NCBI RefSeq assembly: GCF_018619185.1
Contig: NZ_JAAXYC010000002.1
Location: 1-64,000, forward strand
Source: Streptomyces sp. McG3
GTDB taxonomy: Bacteria; Actinomycetota; Actinomycetes; Streptomycetales; Streptomycetaceae
Reading direction: 5' to 3'
DNA length: 64,000 bases
The notes beneath the pieces are model-generated. The model made no database searches, was not told the origin of the DNA, and saw nothing but the letters and a program-made list of their open reading frames with translations. Below are positions 37,655-47,177 of this stretch, in pieces. The position numbers were made by a program, and so were the translations under genes. Positions within the stretch are counted from its first letter, which is position 1; every line of letters begins with the position of its first letter.

Positions 37655-39100
37655 TCAGGAGTAGCGCAGGGCGATGGTGTCGCCGACGCCGATCGTCTTG
37701 TTGCGGGCGGCCCCGGAGAAGGCCGAACCGTCCACGGACACCTTCCAGGTCGCCGAGCCGGCGTTGGCCCTGCCGTTGACGGAGGTGATGGTTCCGGTGC
37801 CGGAGGCGGGGACCACGGAGGTGACGCAGCCCGCCGGGGTGGACGCGCTCGTCGCGGCGGCCAGCACGTCGCCGAGGGTGGTGGTCGTGCCGGTCGGGGT
37901 GAACGCCACCGAGCAGACCTTCAGGGCGCCGGTGCCGTCGTCCACGGTGAGCGCCAGCTTCGTCGCCGTACCGGCGGTGAAGCCGCCCGCCGCGACCCAC
38001 TTGGGCGCGCCCGCGGTGACCGGGGTGGGCGGCGCCGCGGTGAAGCCGCCGCCCGCGACGGCGCGCAGGGCGTCGAGGGAGGAGTAGGCGGACGGGGTGG
38101 TGTCGGAGGGCTGGTACTTGAAGCCGCCTCCCGGGGTGAACTGCTGGGCGATCAGGAAGTCGATCGGGGTTCTGCCGGCCGGGGTGAGGAAGTCGCCGGT
38201 CTGCGGGTTGATGCCGCAGGCGTTGAGCCCGGAGACGGCCCAGCCGTTGGAGCTGGTGTTGATGCCGTACATGGCGTTGAACGCGCCGGAGGTGTTGACC
38301 AGCTTGCTCTTGAGGAACGCCTTGGCCTGGAGGATGTCGGGGTCGGTGTTCGGGACGCCGGACACGCAGAGCGCGGCCATCGAGGCACCGGTCATGTCGA
38401 CGTCGCCCGGCTTGTTCAGCTCGGTCGCGTTGCCCTCGGCCTTGGCGTAGGTCCAGCCGCCGTCGTTGTGCTGATTGGCTCGCAGGCGGGTGACGACCTT
38501 GTCGACGAGCGCCTGCGGGATCCGCTGGGCGCCCGTCTGGGTTCTGGCACCTCCCAGGGCGAGGGCGGCGAAGACGGTGCCGTTGTAGTTGGCGGACGGG
38601 CCGAAGTAGCCGGCTTCCGCGTTCTGCCAGTAGCCGTAGATGTCGGCGATCAGGTTGCGCGAGGCGGAGACCCGGGCGGGGTCGATCCCGGCGGCGTACG
38701 CGTTGAGCGTGCCGCGCTGGTAGTCGGTGACGACGGGGGTGGCGGAGGGCCAGCCGGGGGTGGCCAGGAGGTTGCGGTAGACGGTGCGGGCGTTCTTGGT
38801 GGCGTCGCCGCCCGGCGTCACGTCCACGGCGGCCGTACCGGCGGCGGCGAGCGCGCTGAACGCCCACTCGTTGGAGAGGCCGGAGCCGGCGTACGAACCG
38901 TCGGCCGCCTGGAGGGACTTGACGTACGTCACACCGTTGGTCTTCGAGGTGGCGATCTGGGCGGGGGTGGACGTCGCGGCGGCGGGGAGCGCCGTGAGGA
39001 CGAACGCCCCGAGGGCGGCGGGCGCCACGAGGCCGAAGCGGCGGGACCTACGGGAGATACGAGAGTCGCTGGGCGTGCGGGATGTGACAGAACGGGGCAT
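37655..39100 (-). CDS. secreted transcobalamin-like protein (alpha-toroid plus DUF4430)
   Basis: A 481-residue exported protein. Residues 1 to about 43 are a signal peptide (core FGLVAPAALGAFVLTALPAA). Residues 45-355 form an alpha-toroid of prenyltransferase/squalene-cyclase-type repeats: SLQAADGSYAGSGLSNEWAF, QHNDGGWTYAKAEG, GDVDMTGASMAALCVSG, PGGGFKYQPSDTTPSAYSSL. Residues about 370-481 form a DUF4430 domain (TTTTLGDVLAAATSAS, GTITSVNGRANAGSATWKVS, VGDTIALRYS). Helical barrel then beta-domain is the order in animal intrinsic factor and transcobalamin, and DUF4430 is named in Pfam as transcobalamin-like. The leader holds a cobalamin riboswitch, and an AGGAGC lies six bases before the ATG. 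Likely a secreted corrinoid binder; binding itself is inferred. No cell-wall anchor. Confidence 0.85.
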   Translation of the reverse strand: MPRSVTSRTPSDSRISRRSRRFGLVAPAALGAFVLTALPAAATSTPAQIATSKTNGVTYVKSLQAADGSYAGSGLSNEWAFSALAAAGTAAVDVTPGGDATKNARTVYRNLLATPGWPSATPVVTDYQRGTLNAYAAGIDPARVSASRNLIADIYGYWQNAEAGYFGPSANYNGTVFAALALGGARTQTGAQRIPQALVDKVVTRLRANQHNDGGWTYAKAEGNATELNKPGDVDMTGASMAALCVSGVPNTDPDILQAKAFLKSKLVNTSGAFNAMYGINTSSNGWAVSGLNACGINPQTGDFLTPAGRTPIDFLIAQQFTPGGGFKYQPSDTTPSAYSSLDALRAVAGGGFTAAPPTPVTAGAPKWVAAGGFTAGTATKLALTVDDGTGALKVCSVAFTPTGTTTTLGDVLAAATSASTPAGCVTSVVPASGTGTITSVNGRANAGSATWKVSVDGSAFSGAARNKTIGVGDTIALRYS

Positions 39101-39224
39101 GTGCCTGCTCCTGGGATGAGGGGCGCACGGCACCACAGCGCCTCCCGGGCCGCGCGGGGCGGGGCAAGGGCAGGCCGGGGTGGCCGACGCCCGGACGCGT
39201 GGGTACGGCTTCTCCTGGGACAAC

Positions 39225-39345
39225 CACCGTCTGGGCATTCGGGCTCGGGAACGGCCCCCAGCCGTCCCACACCGCTGCGCGTCAGCCCCGGATTCGCACC
39301 GGGTTCCCCCCTACGGCAGGCCAGGACGCTACCCGAGGCGGCACG
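39225..39345 (-). promoter_or_regulatory. cobalamin riboswitch upstream of the secreted toroid-DUF4430 gene
   Basis: Minus-strand sequence shows the conserved core GGGAACCCGGTGCGAATCCG, then GGGCTGACGCGCAGCGGT, and the closing segment GAGCCCGAATGCCCAGAC. This is the B12-box arrangement of actinobacterial cobalamin riboswitches. It lies about 125 bases before the ATG at 39100. Boundaries are approximate. Expression should fall when B12 is plentiful. Confidence 0.88.
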
Positions 39346-39424
39346 GCCGCGCCAGGGACGGTCCGGGCGTGCGCCGGGACGATCGCGAAGGAGACACAGG
39401 CCACCTTGACGGTCTCTTCGAGAG

Positions 39425-39540
39425 CGTGTTCCAATCCGCCTGATACGCACTCAGCCCCAGGGGAAGCCGGTCGGAATCCGGCGCTGACCCGCAACCGTAG
39501 GCCCGCCACCGCGCGGGCGAGCCGGAATGCCTGGGGCCAG
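39425..39540 (+). promoter_or_regulatory. cobalamin riboswitch upstream of the ECF operon
   Basis: GGGGAAGCCGGTCGGAATCC, then GGCGCTGACCCGCAACCGTA and GAGCCGGAATGCCTGGGGC form the cobalamin riboswitch core and its P1-side closure. It ends about 135 bases before the GTG at 39677. A 7-bp hairpin ACGCCGT/ACGGCGT at 39556-39577 follows and may be part of the expression platform. Together with the minus-strand element it fills the 576-base gap 39101-39676 with nothing else recognisable. Confidence 0.9.
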
Positions 39541-39676
39541 GAATTTCAGCGAGAAACGCCGTCGCGGACTACGGCGTGGTTCGAACAGCTCCCTGCGGGC
39601 GGCCCTTTCGTGGCCGTGTCCTGCCCGGGGAGCCGTCTGCCACGCGGGGCCCGCCCGGACGACACGAGGGGCCGTG

Positions 39677-42460
39677 GTGGGGACCGCACAGCAACAGGAC
39701 CGGCGCGTGGGGAAGAAGAGACTTCTCCCGCTCATCACGGCCGCCGCGGTGACCTTCGCCGCGAGCGTGGCGTTCGTCACCGGCGCGGGACCGGCGGTCG
39801 CCGACCCCGTCGAGGAGTGCACGGCCACGAAGGGCGCGATCGTCGCGGTGGACTTCACACCGTTCGGCGGCGGTGTGGTACGCGGCTGCGACACCACCCC
39901 GGCCACCGGCTTCGAACTGCTCCGCGACGGCGGGTTCACCACCGAGGGCACCCAGCACGACGGCGACGGCTTCATCTGCCGGATCGGCAACGCTTCGTTC
40001 AACTCCGGTACGCGGTACCCGACTCCGGCAGCCGAGGACTGCGTGCTGACCCCGCAGGCCACCGCCTACTGGTCGTACTGGATCGCTTCGCCCGGCCAGA
40101 AGACCTGGTCCTACAGTCCGCTCGGCGCGATGAGCCGCACACCCGGGGCCGGCGACGTGGACGCGTGGGTGTTCGGCGGCACCGACATCGGCGGATCCAC
40201 CGGCCGCCCCACCTTCACCCCCGACGAGGTCCGCGCGGGCGGCGGGGCGACGCCCGGTCCGACCGAGGGCCCGACCGACGGTCCGGGCGTTCCCGCCGGG
40301 GAGATCGACGTACCGGCCGCCGCCCGCTGGGTGAGCGGTCAACTGCGTGACGGCACGCACGTGGTGGACGAGGGGGCCGAGGCGCCGAACGACTTCCTCA
40401 CCACCGAGGCCGCGTACGCGCTCGCGGCGGCGGGCGGCAAGGGCCCGGCGCTGGACAAGGTGACGGCCCACCTCGCCGGCCGGACCGCCGCCTACGCCTA
40501 CCCGAACGGCACGGACGCGGCGCCCGACGCCCCGGCGGCCGCCCGGCTGGCGCTCATCGCGGAGATCACCGAGGGCGACCCGCGCGACTTCGGCGGGCAC
40601 GACCTGCTCGGCGACCTCACGGAGCACGTGTGCCCGGCGGGCCCCGACGCGGGCAGCCCCACCCCAGGCTGCACGGCCAAGGGCGACTTCAACGGCGCGA
40701 CGTACGCGGACGGGCAGGCGCTGGCCGTGCTGGCACTGCTGCGCGGCGGGGTCCGGCCGCCCGCCGGGACCGTGGACAGGCTGGCCCAACTGGTCTGCCA
40801 GGACGGCTCGGTGACCAGCATCCTCATCCGCCCCGGCGAGAACTGCGACGGCGATCCGATGACCACGGGGCTGGTCGCGATGGTGCTGAAGGAGGCGGGC
40901 GGGCAGGACGCCGTCGTCGCCGGGGCGCGGACGTATCTGAAGAAGGCGCAGCTGGACTCCGGCGCGTTCCCGCCGGCCAACGGGGCGACCACCGGCTCCG
41001 TGGCCCCCACCGCGTACGCGGCCCAGGCGCTGCGCGCGCTCGGTGACGGCGGCGCGGCGGACGCGGCCGTCGCCTGGCTGTCGCGGGAGCAACTGGACGG
41101 CGGCGGCTTCGGGTTCGGCGAGGGCGCCACCGACCCCGCGCTGTACGCGACCGGCCCCGCCGTGCTGGCGGGGGCGGGCGTCGACCTGGTCACCCTGGTC
41201 GCGAAGGCCCCCGAGCCCACGGACCCGCCGACCACTCCCCCGGCGACCGGCGGCCCCACCCCGCGGCCGACGACCCGCCCGCCGGGGATCGGACCGGACC
41301 TGAAGAAGGGCATCGCCTACCTCACCCGCCCGTCCCATCTCCATCAGGGGCGCTACTACCAGGGCGACGAGAAGACGGGACGCGCCGATTTCGGCCTGAC
41401 CATCGACGGTGCGTTCGCGCTGGCGGCGACCGGGCACGACGACAACGCGCTGCGCACGATCGTGGACTTCCTGGAACAGGGCGGCAAGGACGGCGAGGGC
41501 CGGACCCTGGACGACTGGACCGGGCTGGGCGGCAGTCACGCGCTCGGCGGATCGATGGGCAAGGCGGCCGTCCTCGCCCAGGTCGTCGAACGCGATCCGC
41601 GGGACTTCGGCGGCCGGGACCTGATCGCCGGCCTGGCCGACGCGGTCTGCGCGAAGCCGAGCACCGCCCCGGACCGCAGCTGCCCGGCCGCGGGCGCCTA
41701 CACCTACGCACCGTCCGTCTTCGCCCACTCCCTCGGGATCCTGGCGCAGGTGCGCGCGGGCGAGGAGAAGGCGGCCGAGGCCCCGATCGCGTACCTCGCG
41801 GGGCTCCAGCACGCCTCCGGGGCCTGGCCGAGCCTGATCCCGGCGACGGGCGACTCGGAGGTGGACTCGACGGCGATGGCCGCGATGACGCTGGACCTGG
41901 TCCCGGGCGACGCGCACGCCGCCGCCGTGGACAAGGCGCTGGCCTGGCTGGCTTCCCGGCAGCTGGCGGACGGCGGCTTCCCCGGAGCGTCCGGCAACTC
42001 GGTCAACTCCGCGGGGCTCGCCGTGCAGGGCCTCTCCCTGGACGCGGAGAAGTACGACGCCCAGATCACGAGGGCGCTGAGGTTCCTCGCATCGCAGCAG
42101 AACGAGGACGGCGGGTTCAACGTCGCGAAGGAGGGTCAGCGGGGCTCGGACATCCGCGCCTCGGCGCAGGCCGTCGGCGGGTCCACCGGCATCTCCTTCG
42201 GCACCCTGACCCGCGACCTGGAGGGCACCACCCCGAACCCGGTGCCGACCTCGTCCGCCCCGGTGATCGTCACTCCTGGGGACAGCGCGGGCGGCGGCGT
42301 CGTGCACGCCGACGGTCCCGGCGGCGGGGGCGCCCTCGCGTCGACCGGTGCCCAGGCGCTCGGCCTGGCGGCGGCCGCCGCGGTGCTGGTCCTGGTGGGC
42401 CGGGGCACGGTCGTCGCCGCCCGGAACCGGCGTGCGGCGGCAGCGGGTGGTCAGCGGTGA
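39677..42460 (+). CDS. LAxTG wall-anchored protein with a beta-domain and two alpha-toroids
   Basis: A 927-residue surface protein, first gene of the B12-riboswitch operon. GTG at 39677 has GAGGGG five bases upstream. Layout: signal peptide to about residue 42 (LLPLITAAAVTFAASVAF); a cysteine-containing beta-domain at about 48-185 (TKGAIVAVDFTPFGGGVVRG, TGFELLRDGGF, YWSYWIASPGQKTWSYSPLG, GDVDAWVFGG), also found in the next protein; toroid 1 at about 205-500 and toroid 2 at about 540-860, with QLDSGAFPPANG, QLDGGGFGFGEG, QLADGGFPGASG, QNEDGGFNVAKEG repeats, joined by a Pro/Thr linker. The end is LASTG, a hydrophobic stretch and basic residues: a sorting signal for class E sortase (LAxTG). Probably a wall-displayed corrinoid-binding protein; the ligand is inferred from riboswitch and operon. 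Confidence 0.85.
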   Translation: MGTAQQQDRRVGKKRLLPLITAAAVTFAASVAFVTGAGPAVADPVEECTATKGAIVAVDFTPFGGGVVRGCDTTPATGFELLRDGGFTTEGTQHDGDGFICRIGNASFNSGTRYPTPAAEDCVLTPQATAYWSYWIASPGQKTWSYSPLGAMSRTPGAGDVDAWVFGGTDIGGSTGRPTFTPDEVRAGGGATPGPTEGPTDGPGVPAGEIDVPAAARWVSGQLRDGTHVVDEGAEAPNDFLTTEAAYALAAAGGKGPALDKVTAHLAGRTAAYAYPNGTDAAPDAPAAARLALIAEITEGDPRDFGGHDLLGDLTEHVCPAGPDAGSPTPGCTAKGDFNGATYADGQALAVLALLRGGVRPPAGTVDRLAQLVCQDGSVTSILIRPGENCDGDPMTTGLVAMVLKEAGGQDAVVAGARTYLKKAQLDSGAFPPANGATTGSVAPTAYAAQALRALGDGGAADAAVAWLSREQLDGGGFGFGEGATDPALYATGPAVLAGAGVDLVTLVAKAPEPTDPPTTPPATGGPTPRPTTRPPGIGPDLKKGIAYLTRPSHLHQGRYYQGDEKTGRADFGLTIDGAFALAATGHDDNALRTIVDFLEQGGKDGEGRTLDDWTGLGGSHALGGSMGKAAVLAQVVERDPRDFGGRDLIAGLADAVCAKPSTAPDRSCPAAGAYTYAPSVFAHSLGILAQVRAGEEKAAEAPIAYLAGLQHASGAWPSLIPATGDSEVDSTAMAAMTLDLVPGDAHAAAVDKALAWLASRQLADGGFPGASGNSVNSAGLAVQGLSLDAEKYDAQITRALRFLASQQNEDGGFNVAKEGQRGSDIRASAQAVGGSTGISFGTLTRDLEGTTPNPVPTSSAPVIVTPGDSAGGGVVHADGPGGGGALASTGAQALGLAAAAAVLVLVGRGTVVAARNRRAAAAGGQR

Positions 42461-43377
42461 ACCCGCGCCTCCTTCGCGGCGCCGCCCGGGCCCTGGGGGC
42501 CCTCGGACTGGCCGGCGCGGCGCTGCTGGCCCCCACCGGGCAGGCGTCCGCGGCCCCGCAGCCGATCGGCCGGTGCACCACCTCTTCGGGCGTGGTGCTG
42601 GCCGTGGACTTCAGCCACTGGGGCGGCCCCGTCTACCGGTCCTGCGGTACGACGCCGACCACCGGCTACGAGCTGCTCAACCAGGGCGGCTGGCGGACCA
42701 CCGGCACCGGGCACGACGGGCCGGCGTTCATCTGCCGGATCGGCTACAGCGGACACCAGGGCGGCAAGCAGTACCCGACGTCCCAGCAGGAGGACTGCGT
42801 CCTCACCCCGCCGGCCTCGGCCTACTGGTCGTACTGGCACGCCGACCCCGGGGAGAACACCTGGGAGTACAGCCAGCTCGGCGCGATGAGCTACCGGCCC
42901 CGGCCGGGCAGCGTGGACCTGTGGATCTTCGGCGGGACGAACATCGAGGGCACGAAGGGCCGCCCGACCGTCACCCCGAACCAGTTGCGCGCCCATAACT
43001 CCCGCCCCACGGGCGGCGATCCGGCACCGGAGCCGAGGCCCGATCCCGTACGGACGACGCAGCGGCCGGCGGGCGGCGGCCAGGTTCCGCCTCCGTCGGC
43101 CGCCGCACCGGAGGTCTCGGAGTCCGCGTCGCCCTCCGCTTCCGCGAGCGGGTCCCCGTCCGCCTCCTCCACTCCCTCCCCCAGTGCGTCCGCTTCGACG
43201 ACGGGGCCGGCGGCGGCTGCGCCGGAGAAGCCGGCGAAGGTGGTGGACGCCGCCCCGGCGGCCGACGTGGAGCACGACTCCGGGTCCGTCGTGCCGGTGG
43301 CGGCGACGGCCGGCCTCGTGGTGGTCATCGGCGGCGCGGCCCTCTTCGCCGCGAAACGCCGCCGCCGTGAGCAGTAG
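42457..43377 (+). CDS. membrane-tethered single beta-domain surface protein
   Basis: A 306-residue protein that starts with GTG inside the previous stop codon (GTGA overlap). After a signal peptide (ALGALGLAGAALLAPTGQAS) comes one copy of the beta-domain of the previous protein at about residues 40-165: SSGVVLAVDFSHWGGPVYRS, TGYELLNQGGW, FICRIGY, YWSYWHADPGENTWEYSQLG, GSVDLWIFGGTNIEG. A Pro/Ser/Ala-rich spacer of about 100 residues follows, then one membrane helix (VVPVAATAGLVVVIGGAALF) and a KRRRREQ tail. No LAxTG or LPxTG, so it is held by its helix. The position between the wall-anchored binder and the ECF membrane subunits suggests a hand-over or docking role (inference). Confidence 0.8.
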   Translation: MNPRLLRGAARALGALGLAGAALLAPTGQASAAPQPIGRCTTSSGVVLAVDFSHWGGPVYRSCGTTPTTGYELLNQGGWRTTGTGHDGPAFICRIGYSGHQGGKQYPTSQQEDCVLTPPASAYWSYWHADPGENTWEYSQLGAMSYRPRPGSVDLWIFGGTNIEGTKGRPTVTPNQLRAHNSRPTGGDPAPEPRPDPVRTTQRPAGGGQVPPPSAAAPEVSESASPSASASGSPSASSTPSPSASASTTGPAAAAPEKPAKVVDAAPAADVEHDSGSVVPVAATAGLVVVIGGAALFAAKRRRREQ

Positions 43378-44563
43378 TCACCGCGTGGCCCGGGCGGCGT
43401 CTGAGCCGGGCACGCCGGTGTCCGCCCCCGGGCCGGACACCGGCGGCCGGCGGCTGCCGCGCACCCTGCACCCGGTCGCCTGGTGGATCTGGGCGCTCGC
43501 CCTGGCCACGGCGGTCAGCCGGACCAACAACCCGCTGCTGCTCTTCCTGGTCCTCGCGGTGCTCGGCTACGTCGTCACCACACGCCGCACCGAGGCCCCG
43601 TGGGCGCGGGGCTTCACGTACTACCTCTACCTGGCGCTGGTGGTGGTGGCGATCCGGGTGATCTTCCGGGCGGTCTTCGCCACCGGAATCCGGCCGACCG
43701 ACCACTACCTCTTCTCCCTGCCGCACATCCCGACACCCGACTGGTACGCGGGCATCCAGCTCGGCGGCCCGGTCTCGCTGGAGGCGCTGCTGTCGGCCGC
43801 GACGGACGGACTGCGCCTCGCCTGCATGCTGTGCTGCATCGGCGCGGCGAACACCCTCGCCAATCCGAAGCGGGCGCTGCGCGTCCTGCCGGGCGCGCTC
43901 TACGAACTGGGTGTCGCCGTGACCGTGTCGATCAGCGTCGCCCCCCAACTGGTGCAGAGCGTGCAGCGGGTGGCCCGCGCCCGCCGGCTGCGGGCGGGCC
44001 GCAACAAGGGGCTGCGAGCGCTGAGGGGGATCGTGGTCCCGGTGCTGGAGGACGCGCTGGAGCGGTCGCTCCGGCTGGCCGCGGCGATGGACTCGCGCGG
44101 CTACGGCCGGGCCGGGTCGGCGACGCGCGGCTCGCGCCGGCTGACCGGGGCGCTGATGCTGCTGGGCATGTGCGGGCTGTGTGCCGGGGCGTACGGCCTC
44201 CTCGACGCGACCGCTCCCACGCTGCTGGGGCTGCCCGCCCTGGCGGCCGGCTCGGTGCTCTGCCTGGCCGGGCTGCGGCTGGGCGGGCGCCGGGTGACGC
44301 GGACGACGTACCGGCCGGATCCGTGGCGGTTCGCGGAGTCGGCGGTGGCGTCCTGCGGAGTGGTCTCCGCCGTGCTGCTGTTCGTCAACGTCGGCTACGA
44401 CCCGGCCGAACTGAACCCGTCCATCTATCCGCTGAGCTGGCCGACGCTGCCGCTCGTCCCGGCCGCCGCGATCCTGCTCGCGGGCGCGGCCGGGTTCCTG
44501 GCGCCGCCGCCCGATCCGCCCACTCCGCACATCCCCGCGCAGCGCACCGAGGAAGCCGCATGA
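43367..44563 (+). CDS. ECF transporter transmembrane component (EcfT / CbiQ-like)
   Basis: T component of an energy-coupling-factor vitamin transporter, about 398 residues. Several membrane helices are visible (HPVAWWIWALALATAV, LLLFLVLAVLGYVVTT, YYLYLALVVVAIRVIF, LTGALMLLGMCGLCAGAYG). The cytoplasmic coupling helices contain VARARRLRAGRN and AAAMDSRGYGR, matching the two short Ala-Arg-Gly-type motifs by which EcfT proteins contact the ATPases. I use the GTG at 43367, overlapping the previous gene by 11 bases; a GTG at 43385 is an alternative. Gene order T-A-S with coupled overlaps. Confidence 0.85.
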   Translation: MSSSHRVARAASEPGTPVSAPGPDTGGRRLPRTLHPVAWWIWALALATAVSRTNNPLLLFLVLAVLGYVVTTRRTEAPWARGFTYYLYLALVVVAIRVIFRAVFATGIRPTDHYLFSLPHIPTPDWYAGIQLGGPVSLEALLSAATDGLRLACMLCCIGAANTLANPKRALRVLPGALYELGVAVTVSISVAPQLVQSVQRVARARRLRAGRNKGLRALRGIVVPVLEDALERSLRLAAAMDSRGYGRAGSATRGSRRLTGALMLLGMCGLCAGAYGLLDATAPTLLGLPALAAGSVLCLAGLRLGGRRVTRTTYRPDPWRFAESAVASCGVVSAVLLFVNVGYDPAELNPSIYPLSWPTLPLVPAAAILLAGAAGFLAPPPDPPTPHIPAQRTEEAA

Positions 44564-46311
44564 TCACCTTCGACCAGGTGTCCGTCGTGTACGACGGCGC
44601 CGACGAGCCGGTCCTGCGGGACGTGAACCTGAAGGTCGACGAGGGCGAACTGTGCCTCGTGGTGGGGCATACGGGAGTCGGCAAGTCGACCCTGCTGGGC
44701 GCGGTCAACGGGCTCGTCCCGCACTTCACCGGCGGCACGCTGTACGGCACGGTCATGGTCGACGGCCGCGACACCGCCGACCACCCGCCGCGCGAACTCG
44801 CCGATGTCGTGGGCGTGGTGGGCCAGGATCCGCTGGACGGGTTCGTCACGGACACGGTCGAGGAGGAACTCGCCTACTCGATGGAGCAGTTGGCCATCGC
44901 GCCGGCCGTCATGCGTAAGCGCGTCGAGGAGACGCTCGACCTGCTGGGGCTCGCGGATCTGCGCCACCGGGCGCTGCACGAGCTCTCCGGGGGGCAGCAG
45001 CAGCGTGTCGCGATCGGCTCCGTGCTCACCGCCCACCCACGGGTCCTGGTGCTGGACGAGCCGACGTCCGCGCTCGATCCGACGGCGGCCGAGGAGGTAC
45101 TGGCCGCGGTGACCCGGCTGGTCCACGACCTGGGGGTGACGGTGCTGCTGGCCGAGCACCGGCTGGAGCGGGTGGTGCAGTACGCCGACCGCGTCATCCA
45201 GTTGCCGGGGGACGGCCGGGTGGTGTCGGGGCCGCCGGCGGAGATCTTCACGTCGTCGTCGATCGCCCCGCCCATCGTCGAGCTGGGCCGGGCGGCGGGC
45301 TGGTCGCCCCTGCCCCTGTCCGTACGCGATGCCCGCCGGGCCGCCCGACCGCTGCGTACGGCGCTGGAGGGCACGGCACCCCCGCCGGTGCGCGCCGCCC
45401 CCGGCCCTCCGGGCGCGGAACTGCTCAGGGCCCGGGGGATCACGGTCGCGTACCGGGGCGCCCCGGCGGTCCGCGATGTGGACCTCGACCTGCGGGCCGG
45501 GGAGGTGACGGCGCTGATGGGCCGCAACGGCTCGGGCAAGTCGTCGCTGCTGTGGGCGCTCCAGGGATCGGGGCACCGTACGTCCGGAACGGTGCGGGTC
45601 GGCCGGGGCGGGCCCGCTGGACCGGGCCCGGCGCGCACGGACGGGAGCGGGCCCGGCGCTCCGGGTCCGGTACGCCGGGGCCGGGGCGGGTCCGGGCCAT
45701 CGGGGCGGGGCCGTCCGGCGGAGGGCGGCGATCCGAAGAGCCTGTCCGCCGCGGAGGCCCGGCGGCTGGTCGGACTCGTACCGCAGACCCCGACCGACCT
45801 GCTGTATCTGGAGAGCGTCGAGCAGGAGCTCGACCAGGCCGACGCCGAGTCCCGGGCGGAAGGAGCCGGGCATCCCGCCCGGACGATCCTGGACCGCCTG
45901 GCCCCGGGCATCGACGGTGCGACGCATCCACGCGACCTCTCCGAGGGCCAGAAGCTGGCGCTGGTCCTCGCGATCCAGCTGACGGCCGCGCCCCGGGTCC
46001 TGCTGCTGGACGAGCCGACGCGCGGTCTCGACTACCGCGCGAAGACCCAGTTGATCGCCATGGTCGACGAACTGGCGGCCGAGGGACGGTCGGTGGTCGT
46101 CTCCACCCATGACGTCGAGTTCGCCGCGCGGGCCGCGGACCGGGTCGTGGTGCTGGCCGAGGGCGACATCGTCGCCGACGGGACGACCGGCGAAGTGATC
46201 GTCGCCTCCCCCGTCTTCGCCCCGCAGGTGGCGAAGATCCTGTCGCCGCTCCCGTACCTGACGGTGGACCAGGTGACGGCGGTGCTCCCGCACGAGGAGG
46301 CGGGTGCGTGA
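44560..46311 (+). CDS. fused double ATPase component of the ECF transporter (EcfA-A')
   Basis: A 583-residue protein with two ABC ATPase domains in one chain. Domain 1: Walker A VVGHTGVGKSTLLGAV, signature HELSGGQQQRVAIGS, Walker B VLVLDEPTSALDP, H-loop LLAEHRLE. Domain 2: Walker A LMGRNGSGKSSLLWAL, signature DLSEGQKLALVLA, Walker B VLLLDEPTRGLDYRA, H-loop VVSTHDVEF. Between Walker A and the Q-loop (VPQTPTDLL) of domain 2 about 40 Gly/Pro/Arg-rich residues are inserted (about 45600-45725). The ATG overlaps the ecfT stop by four bases. It powers uptake with EcfT and the S component encoded next. Confidence 0.92.
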   Translation: MITFDQVSVVYDGADEPVLRDVNLKVDEGELCLVVGHTGVGKSTLLGAVNGLVPHFTGGTLYGTVMVDGRDTADHPPRELADVVGVVGQDPLDGFVTDTVEEELAYSMEQLAIAPAVMRKRVEETLDLLGLADLRHRALHELSGGQQQRVAIGSVLTAHPRVLVLDEPTSALDPTAAEEVLAAVTRLVHDLGVTVLLAEHRLERVVQYADRVIQLPGDGRVVSGPPAEIFTSSSIAPPIVELGRAAGWSPLPLSVRDARRAARPLRTALEGTAPPPVRAAPGPPGAELLRARGITVAYRGAPAVRDVDLDLRAGEVTALMGRNGSGKSSLLWALQGSGHRTSGTVRVGRGGPAGPGPARTDGSGPGAPGPVRRGRGGSGPSGRGRPAEGGDPKSLSAAEARRLVGLVPQTPTDLLYLESVEQELDQADAESRAEGAGHPARTILDRLAPGIDGATHPRDLSEGQKLALVLAIQLTAAPRVLLLDEPTRGLDYRAKTQLIAMVDELAAEGRSVVVSTHDVEFAARAADRVVVLAEGDIVADGTTGEVIVASPVFAPQVAKILSPLPYLTVDQVTAVLPHEEAGA

Positions 46312-47177
46312 AGGACCTCGGAGACCTCACCGACCGCTCCGCCGGGGCCATCCGCATCGCGCCGCGCGCCGGGATCGTGATCGCCATGGCGGCCTTCCTC
46401 GGCCTCGTCGCCTTCTTCTGGCCGTTCGTCGTCGCCCCCGGCAGGCTGGGAGCGAACTACGCGCCGCCGCTGATCTTCGGCGTGCTGCTGATCCTCGTGC
46501 TGTGCGTGGTGATCTCCGAGATCGCCGAGGGCGGCATCAACTCCAAGGCCCTGGCGATGCTCGGGGTGCTCTCCGCCGTGAACGCGGCGCTGCGCCCGCT
46601 CGGTGCGGGGACGGCGGGCATCGAGACGGTCTTCTTCGTTCTCGTCCTGGCGGGCCGCGTGTACGGTCCTGGCTTCGGCTTCACCCTGGGGTGCACCTCG
46701 CTGTTCGCGTCCGCGCTGATCACCGGCGGGGTCGGCCCGTGGATGCCGTACCAGATGTTCGGCTGCGCCTTCGTCGGCATGCTGGCGGGCATGCTGCCCC
46801 GGGCCACGGGACGCCTGGAGGTCATGATGCTCGCGGTCTACGGATCGCTCTCCGGCTATCTCTTCGGCTTTCTGCTGAACCTGTCCTTCTGGCCGTTCTC
46901 GGTGGACCCGAACAGCTCCATCGCCTACCTTCCGGGTCTCCCCTTCACCGAACAGTGGCAGCGCTACCTGGCGTTCGACGTCGCCACCTCCCTCGGCTGG
47001 GACACCGGACGCGCGGTCACGAACTTCGTCCTCGTCACGCTGGCGGGCCCCGCGGTGCTCACCACCTTCCGCCGGGCGGCCCGGAAGGCCCGCTTCCGGG
47101 CCCCGGTCCGCTTCGCTTCCCGGAAACCCGGTGGCGGGGCTCCGGCGGGGATAGATTCGGGGCCGCAGGGACCGTGA
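46308..47177 (+). CDS. ECF transporter substrate-binding S component, probably for cobalamin
   Basis: A 289-residue membrane protein, the vitamin-binding S component. Helices include GIVIAMAAFLGLVAFFWPFV, PPLIFGVLLILVLCVVISEI, FGFTLGCTSLFASALITGGV and LMVLAVYGSLSGYLFGFLLN-like sequence. The block GVGPWMPYQMFGCAFVGMLAG is typical of the large S-component group found in CbrT-like and related systems. The start GTG overlaps the ATPase stop (GTGA). Cobalamin as substrate is inferred from the riboswitch and the surface proteins in the same operon. The C-terminal 40 residues are basic and proline-rich, cytoplasmic. Confidence 0.85.
   Translation: MKDLGDLTDRSAGAIRIAPRAGIVIAMAAFLGLVAFFWPFVVAPGRLGANYAPPLIFGVLLILVLCVVISEIAEGGINSKALAMLGVLSAVNAALRPLGAGTAGIETVFFVLVLAGRVYGPGFGFTLGCTSLFASALITGGVGPWMPYQMFGCAFVGMLAGMLPRATGRLEVMMLAVYGSLSGYLFGFLLNLSFWPFSVDPNSSIAYLPGLPFTEQWQRYLAFDVATSLGWDTGRAVTNFVLVTLAGPAVLTTFRRAARKARFRAPVRFASRKPGGGAPAGIDSGPQGP

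Follow-up and report, generated by a model that had tools for sequence, protein, structure and literature searches.

Two diverging compact cobalamin riboswitch aptamers between a gene for a transcobalamin-like protein and a putative ECF import operon in Streptomyces sp. McG3

Two compact cobalamin riboswitch aptamers, one on each strand and pointing away from each other, lie between a minus-strand gene for a transcobalamin-like protein and a plus-strand operon for surface proteins and an ECF-type transporter in the window, by which we mean the whole stretch of 64,000 nucleotides that was analysed. We consider it likely that two divergent promoters each transcribe their own compact cobalamin riboswitch and that both RNAs act as translational OFF switches, one for the carrier and the other for the import operon. 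Both halves of a likely B12-scavenging system would then probably be turned off when B12 is plentiful. The spacer between the two transcription units had been put at 576 bases (39101-39676) in the sequence-only reading, which is correct provided that the plus-strand operon starts at GTG 39677, one of two adjacent GTG codons and the one kept by most relatives.

Two compact aptamers on opposite strands

Searches with the Rfam model RF00174 matched the minus strand at 39309-39233 with 37.4 bits, above the gathering score of 31.5, and the plus strand at 39393-39524 with 29.5 bits, below that score, the E-values of the plus element being 1.3e-5 for 701 bases and 3.8e-5 genome-wide. The outer helix of RF00174 looks misplaced on the plus element, several of its pairs being flagged as non-standard, and since this element scores under the gathering score it was filed as a compact variant and not as a plain RF00174 member. 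A compact model, R1, was built from 42 sequences comprising relatives and both window elements, and is therefore not independent evidence for the latter, whereas RF00174 is. Both R1 alignments of the window elements were full-length, and the third-best R1 match in the 64 kb reached 13 bits. With RF00174 matches on both strands and R1 scores as listed below, the proposal of two diverging cobalamin riboswitches on opposite strands is upheld.

39225..39322, minus strand: compact cobalamin riboswitch aptamer (P2/P3 to P3'); RF00174 37.4 bits, R1 75.9 bits
39447..39540, plus strand: compact cobalamin riboswitch aptamer; RF00174 29.5 bits (below gathering score), R1 84.7 bits

The spacing between the elements, which had been described as about 80 bases, amounts to 83 bases when measured between the Rfam ends and to 124 bases when measured with the compact model, so that the earlier figure holds for the former only. 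The two elements were also correctly described as non-identical, as they differ in their L5/L13 loops and in P3, P4 and P6 in conserved ways, and the sequence difference between minus and plus aptamers is itself conserved.

According to alignments A2 (window plus 42 of 57 loci), A3 (window plus 45 of 56 loci) and A7 and to the consensus folds, both aptamers comprise the conserved core, P3, P4, the L5 region, a short P6 and a B12-box-like closing motif. Neither has a P8-P12 extension, P6 being a short hairpin. The J3/4 segment of the window elements contains GGAA, and J6/3 reads AAUG in both; the J6/3 bases may resemble those of a known class IIa RNA. By the class criteria given in the accessible text of PMC11260477, namely P8-P12 for class I and GGAA in J3/4 together with UCU in J6/3 for class IIb, the aptamers are not class I because the P8-P12 extension is absent; they carry the J3/4 bases of class IIb but not its UCU in J6/3. 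Both RNAs are thus within or at the edge of the known cobalamin riboswitch class.

Cobalamin is the putative ligand of both RNAs. It is possible, though doubtful, that another cofactor form or a precursor is sensed instead (methyl- or hydroxocobalamin, or cobinamide), or that the two ligands differ and tune binder and importer apart. The mixed J3/4 and J6/3 bases of these non-class-I RNAs are consistent with such a reading, as are the L5/L13 pairs, which are conserved within either switch but different from one to the other. However, the compact ppe2 riboswitch is reported, in the part of PMC11260477 available, neither to be unable to bind AdoB12 nor to be selective for it, and compactness therefore leaves the ligand undecided. 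The locus might also be a module dedicated to scavenging extracellular B12, with a secreted transcobalamin, cell-surface receptors and an ECF importer, whose paralogous compact riboswitches, with differing kissing loops and diverging from a common promoter region, would set distinct B12 thresholds for carrier and importer, a suggestion that we regard as tentative and somewhat unlikely.

Genes on either side of the spacer

The genes flanking the spacer are the following:

37655..39100, minus strand: transcobalamin/intrinsic-factor-like protein, alpha/alpha toroid plus C-terminal beta domain; signal peptide by eye
39677..42460, plus strand: repeat protein, first gene of the operon; Pfam toroid families, signal peptide and anchor tail by eye
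42457..43377, plus strand: second probable surface protein; SCO2322-family E 1.2e-4, below cut-off
43184..44563, plus strand: ECF transporter T component (CbiQ family), limits of the listed open reading frame; PF02361 E 1.1e-9
44560..46311, plus strand: ECF double ATPase, two ABC_tran stretches; TIGR04520 E 7.4e-83, below cut-off
46308..47177, plus strand: probable ECF S component; TIGR04518 E 0.003, below cut-off; substrate putatively cobalamin

The minus-strand gene had been read as encoding a secreted binder, and this was borne out in so far as the modelled protein has the transcobalamin/intrinsic-factor fold of a B12 carrier, its signal peptide being recognized by eye and B12 binding being predicted. 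An AlphaFold2 model obtained from alignment A4, which holds the window protein and those of 42 of the 58 orthologous loci (43 sequences, with identity to the window protein dropping to 64%), had a pLDDT of 85.9 and a pTM of 0.84. In Foldseek searches of the PDB with this model, ranks 1-15 were transcobalamin, haptocorrin and intrinsic factor (E 1.9e-8 to 1.3e-5), with matches that span both domains at 12-15% identity. Superimposed as whole chains, the structures agreed poorly (rmsd 18-20 A; TM-score 0.33 to 0.37 when normalized by query length), and the two domains may be arranged differently in the model. Taken by itself, the toroid resembles terpene cyclases more closely, with Z 24.2 for squalene-hopene cyclase and Z 19.3 for intrinsic factor. 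A first structure model from 12 sequences was poor (pLDDT 42.8) and was discarded; with that poorer model, the beta domain had matched 5np4 with a probability of 1.00 and a TMt of 0.60. At the sequence level, Pfam gave a sub-threshold toroid match only, and a PDB sequence search returned nothing significant (best E 0.018). A class-wide profile search at E 1e-8 or better found the protein in its own genome only (1 of 296), and since some of these genomes belong to the same genus, the family looks narrow and patchy.

On the plus strand, the description as an import operon found support: it is of the ECF type, the T component and the double ATPase being clear from profiles and the S component being probable. 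The true start of the T component may lie further inside its open reading frame. The first protein of the operon shows SCO2321-family similarity (NF053823, E 1.7e-34, below cut-off), and its N-terminal domain is 52% identical to that of the second protein (window 39707-40360 and 42457-43377). By eye, both surface proteins show features of secretion, and their tails resemble sortase or membrane anchors.

Promoter-like boxes and switching parts of the two leaders

The elements recognized outside the aptamers in the two leaders were:

39326..39355, minus strand: putative promoter, CTGGCG (39355-39350) and TAGCGT (39331-39326); conserved columns in A2
39183..39209, minus strand: P13 hairpin, loop CGCG 39199-39196 complementary to L5 CGCG 39281-39278
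39121..39192, minus strand: alternative (anti-P13) helix, 39192-39182 with 39133-39121, directly ahead of the Shine-Dalgarno site
39098..39112, minus strand: Shine-Dalgarno AGGAG and start ATG 39100, conserved
39406..39435, plus strand: putative promoter, TTGACG (39406-39411), 18 bases, TCCAAT (39430-39435); A3 columns
39557..39576, plus strand: P13 hairpin, loop GCGG 39564-39567 complementary to L5 CCGC 39489-39492
39574..39645, plus strand: alternative (anti-P13) helix, 39574-39580 with 39639-39645
39639..39679, plus strand: sequestering helix, CCAC with GUGG at the start codon; the inner helix covers the Shine-Dalgarno site
39666-39671, plus strand: Shine-Dalgarno GAGGGG, start GTG 39677

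Between the aptamers, the TTGAC columns are almost invariant in A3, and the two putative promoters predict transcript starts at about 39319 on the minus and about 39442 on the plus strand, at most about 10 bases from each aptamer and giving two transcripts that would not overlap. As a generic sigma-70 consensus scan recovered neither pair of boxes, we infer these promoters from conservation. With conserved promoter-like boxes upstream of each aptamer, transcription beginning downstream of either aptamer seems unlikely from the sequence.

Each leader has a hairpin whose loop is complementary to the L5 loop of its aptamer. In the minus leader, where the distance from aptamer to start codon is 113-139 nt at 57 loci, L13 CGCG and L5 CGCG are both kept in 45 of 45 rows; in the plus leader L5 is CCGC in 42 of 42 sequences and L13 is GCGG in 35, GUGG in 4 and GAGG in 3, the latter at the cost of one kissing pair. 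Both loop pairs are too invariant for a covariation test. The plus P13 stem has 98.8% of its cells paired, with one pair that is C-G in 37 and U-A in 5 of 42 sequences. For the minus P13 stem 86.3% of cells are paired, which is not clearly more than in shuffles (73 of 500 as high for paired cells, 50 of 500 for covariation).

The 3' strand of P13 can alternatively pair with a strand upstream of the ribosome site, and these alternative helices covary in both leaders. On the minus strand, 83.6% of cells are paired, a value that 0 of 500 shuffles reach; one pair occurs as A-U (26), G-C (16) or G-U (3) and is intact in all 45 sequences, but another among the 11 is disrupted in 39 of them. The number of covarying pairs and the number of pair types were equalled or exceeded by 466 and 491 of 500 shuffles. 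On the plus strand, the 3' strand of P13 pairs with the conserved GCCACGC in 94.6% of cells, again reached by 0 of 500 shuffles, and one pair varies between U-A (33), C-G (4) and U-G (2); the pair-count and pair-type measures were reached by 65 and 53 of 500 shuffles, and duplex energy was not significant (mean z -0.70; 2 of 42 below -1.5). The GCCAC strand can also form the plus sequestering helix with the start-codon region, with 80.4% of cells paired and none of 500 shuffles as high, and this helix is part of the structure of lowest free energy predicted for the window leader. Among the 32 of 42 plus leaders passing motif and distance filters, the Shine-Dalgarno site was paired at 0.71 as against 0.61 in controls. 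The minus helix over the start is weak, 23 of 500 shuffles being as high, and the minimum-energy folds of the complete leaders did no better than those of shuffled sequences (z 0.22 and 0.55). Because the energy tests gave no support, the case for switching rests on covariation and position.

From these elements we would propose that every transcript has a promoter, an aptamer and an expression platform to itself; the equal B12 control suggested in the sequence-only reading would be a supposition, as would differences in affinity or corrinoid preference. Under B12 limitation, the 3' half of the P13 stem would pair with the segment immediately ahead of the ribosome site, the start codon would stay accessible, and the transcobalamin-like carrier (minus strand) and the surface-protein/ECF operon (plus strand) would be made. 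When cobalamin is bound, L5 would kiss L13, P13 would be held and the released pre-start strand would fold over the Shine-Dalgarno site and the start codon, whereupon translation would stop. The kissing step and the OFF direction are put forward by analogy with other cobalamin riboswitches, for which the accessible portions of PMC9600662 describe a role of the L5-L13 loop and those of PMC11260477 report translational OFF switches in M. tuberculosis. Consistent with OFF switches of this kind, complementarity between L5 and L13 is retained in both although the loop sequences are not the same.

Both RNAs might instead be cobalamin riboswitches that control transcription, through Rho-dependent termination or pausing, or the stability of the mRNA. 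The weakness by energy of the start-codon helices, and of the minus sequestering helix in particular, would suit such control, and read profiles of Streptomyces lividans point to premature termination via riboswitches (PMC8079986, accessible part). We nevertheless judge this unlikely, as no intrinsic terminator was found in the 701 bases scanned, as the alternative helices finish just upstream of conserved Shine-Dalgarno sites, and as none of 500 shuffles matched the plus sequestering helix in its proportion of paired cells.

Conservation of the divergent pair and relation to known systems

Orthologs of the minus protein were gathered from named genomes at 58 loci, mostly from Streptomyces, the other sources being Kitasatospora, Actinacidiphila, Micromonospora, Dactylosporangium and one unclassified actinomycete bin. 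The divergent pair was found upstream at 57 of these 58 loci by R1 (scripted count), with an aptamer-to-aptamer gap of 79 to 284 bases and a median of 122. At the exception, L069, the ortholog has no divergent pair upstream. A compact element does lie on the strand of the gene at that locus, some 850-950 bases upstream, and a second lies 7.5 kb beyond the gene. In the locus lists 13 loci were omitted, the plus list also lacking L067 and L068, for which no conserved start was found; for the comparison of minus leaders and starts 12 near-identical or redundant loci were omitted and for that of plus starts 11, leaving 46 rows in each case. When 121 genomes of the same genus were sampled, the minus protein was present in 12 and, among the matches listed, the divergent pair in the same 12, and the 150 best-scoring matches listed contained neither convergent nor tandem pairs at distances of up to 400 bases. 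Some loci are common to both samples (L031/G071, L050/G100 and L061/G115), and in view of such shared loci, close relatives and sequences used in the model, the counts speak for conservation and are not independent discoveries. The divergent arrangement is common to many streptomycetes and some relatives.

A wide motif scan was too noisy and was dropped, and paired motifs, with at most one mismatch per motif, were used on the 830-base orthologous stretches. This two-motif pattern occurred on both strands in 56 of 58 stretches; among 1160 mononucleotide-shuffled stretches it matched both strands in none and gave any match in 5. In 1.10 Mb of flanking DNA the pattern was present at 36 places, of which 14 have GGGAA preceding the core, and additional riboswitches account for at least some of them.

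In 20 of the 58 loci a third compact riboswitch was seen on the opposite strand within 3 kb past the minus-gene ortholog. The one at L031:12576-12671 (minus strand), the only locus whose gene was inspected, precedes a gene for a small secreted protein that by eye resembles a stand-alone transcobalamin-type beta domain. In G012, contig C1 harbours the divergent pair and the minus gene at about 8.12 Mb and the matching S component at 5.49 Mb, and on account of this distance the operon may be split or rearranged there.

That one element alone is functional, the other being a relic or a reversed copy, would agree with the sub-gathering score of the plus element, and is very unlikely given that the invariant core is kept in both and is found in 57 of 58 loci; with differences along their whole length and a conserved platform belonging to each, the elements are not recent copies of one another. 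It is most improbable that the conserved boxes in the middle mark a protein-controlled bidirectional operator to which the RNA resemblance is incidental, as the aptamer cores are the most strongly conserved part, with covarying helices, and as the RF00174 matches are independent of this analysis.

Two compact OFF switches would be part of a wider set. Ten RF00174 candidates at E 1 or better are present in the genome, the divergent pair included, and the genes after the others were recognized by eye as metE, cobD, a ribonucleotide reductase gene, cobN, cbtA and genes for a BtuF-like binding protein (Peripla_BP_2), a BtuC-like permease and a SCO2321-like toroid protein. A compact element on contig C69 of the same genome (6285-6189, minus strand; R1 75.5 bits, Rfam 28.9 bits) lies before a BtuC-like permease gene (by eye). 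S-component matches were obtained in 114 of the 121 same-genus genomes, and most of them come from a second, related ECF operon. This operon, which has a SCO2321-like first gene and is nearly genus-wide, has a compact cobalamin riboswitch upstream, in at least 68 of 113 genomes among the matches listed, a count from which five partial S-component rows had been omitted and in which S rows at 53-60% identity were taken as core. The core motif was present in 15 of 20 regions upstream of related ECF operons (L082-L101); when Rfam was applied to 18 of the 20, 13 had the motif and 6 of those passed, which illustrates that the Rfam cut-off misses compact members. The copy upstream of the second ECF operon in the genome studied (contig C395; L010:1524-1615, plus strand) scored 15.4 bits with Rfam and 46.5 bits with the compact model, part of its L5 and the closing motif having been lost (by eye). 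The upstream compact riboswitches of related ECF operons support, without proving, cobalamin as the substrate of this ECF transporter family.

If the proposed system operates, Streptomyces and relatives would release a transcobalamin-like carrier to collect B12, with carrier and importer subject to one type of RNA control, and the predicted bacterial B12 binders of PMC1796856 (accessible part) would be tied to cobalamin through regulation. A substrate would also be suggested for the ECF transporter family with S-component matches in those 114 genomes, and the locus would offer a natural two-switch construct for comparing riboswitch set-points. Among the open-licence papers listed, we found no description of a conserved divergent cobalamin riboswitch pair or of a Streptomyces transcobalamin-like gene linked to a cobalamin riboswitch.

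Among known proteins, the bacterial two-domain transcobalamin-like SLBB proteins described in 2007 as predicted B12 binders resemble the minus protein in mostly having signal peptides and in having an alpha/alpha toroid, there combined with a beta-grasp domain; the accessible text of that paper mentions neither riboswitches nor Streptomyces (PMC1796856). The cobalamin transporter ECF-CbrT has the modules T, A, A and S, as the plus operon probably does, whereas here the S component could not be assigned confidently to any named family and the operon adds surface repeat proteins (PMC5997447, accessible part). With regard to the RNAs, the B12 riboswitches of M. tuberculosis metE and ppe2 are described as translational OFF switches with possible L5-L13 kissing, and ppe2, like the window pair, lacks P8-P12 and has GGAA in J3/4; in contrast, the M. 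tuberculosis switches are linked to upstream open reading frames, precede other genes and are not described as a divergent pair in the available text (PMC11260477). The window elements share with compact, class II-like RF00174 members the GGGAA-P4-L5 core, the B12-box-like closure, the short P6 and the L5-L13 complementarity, and they differ from RF00174 members in the sub-gathering score of the plus element and in lacking P8-P12. What sets them apart from the compact members is that each aptamer lies so close to its predicted transcript start and that the two diverge across one promoter region.
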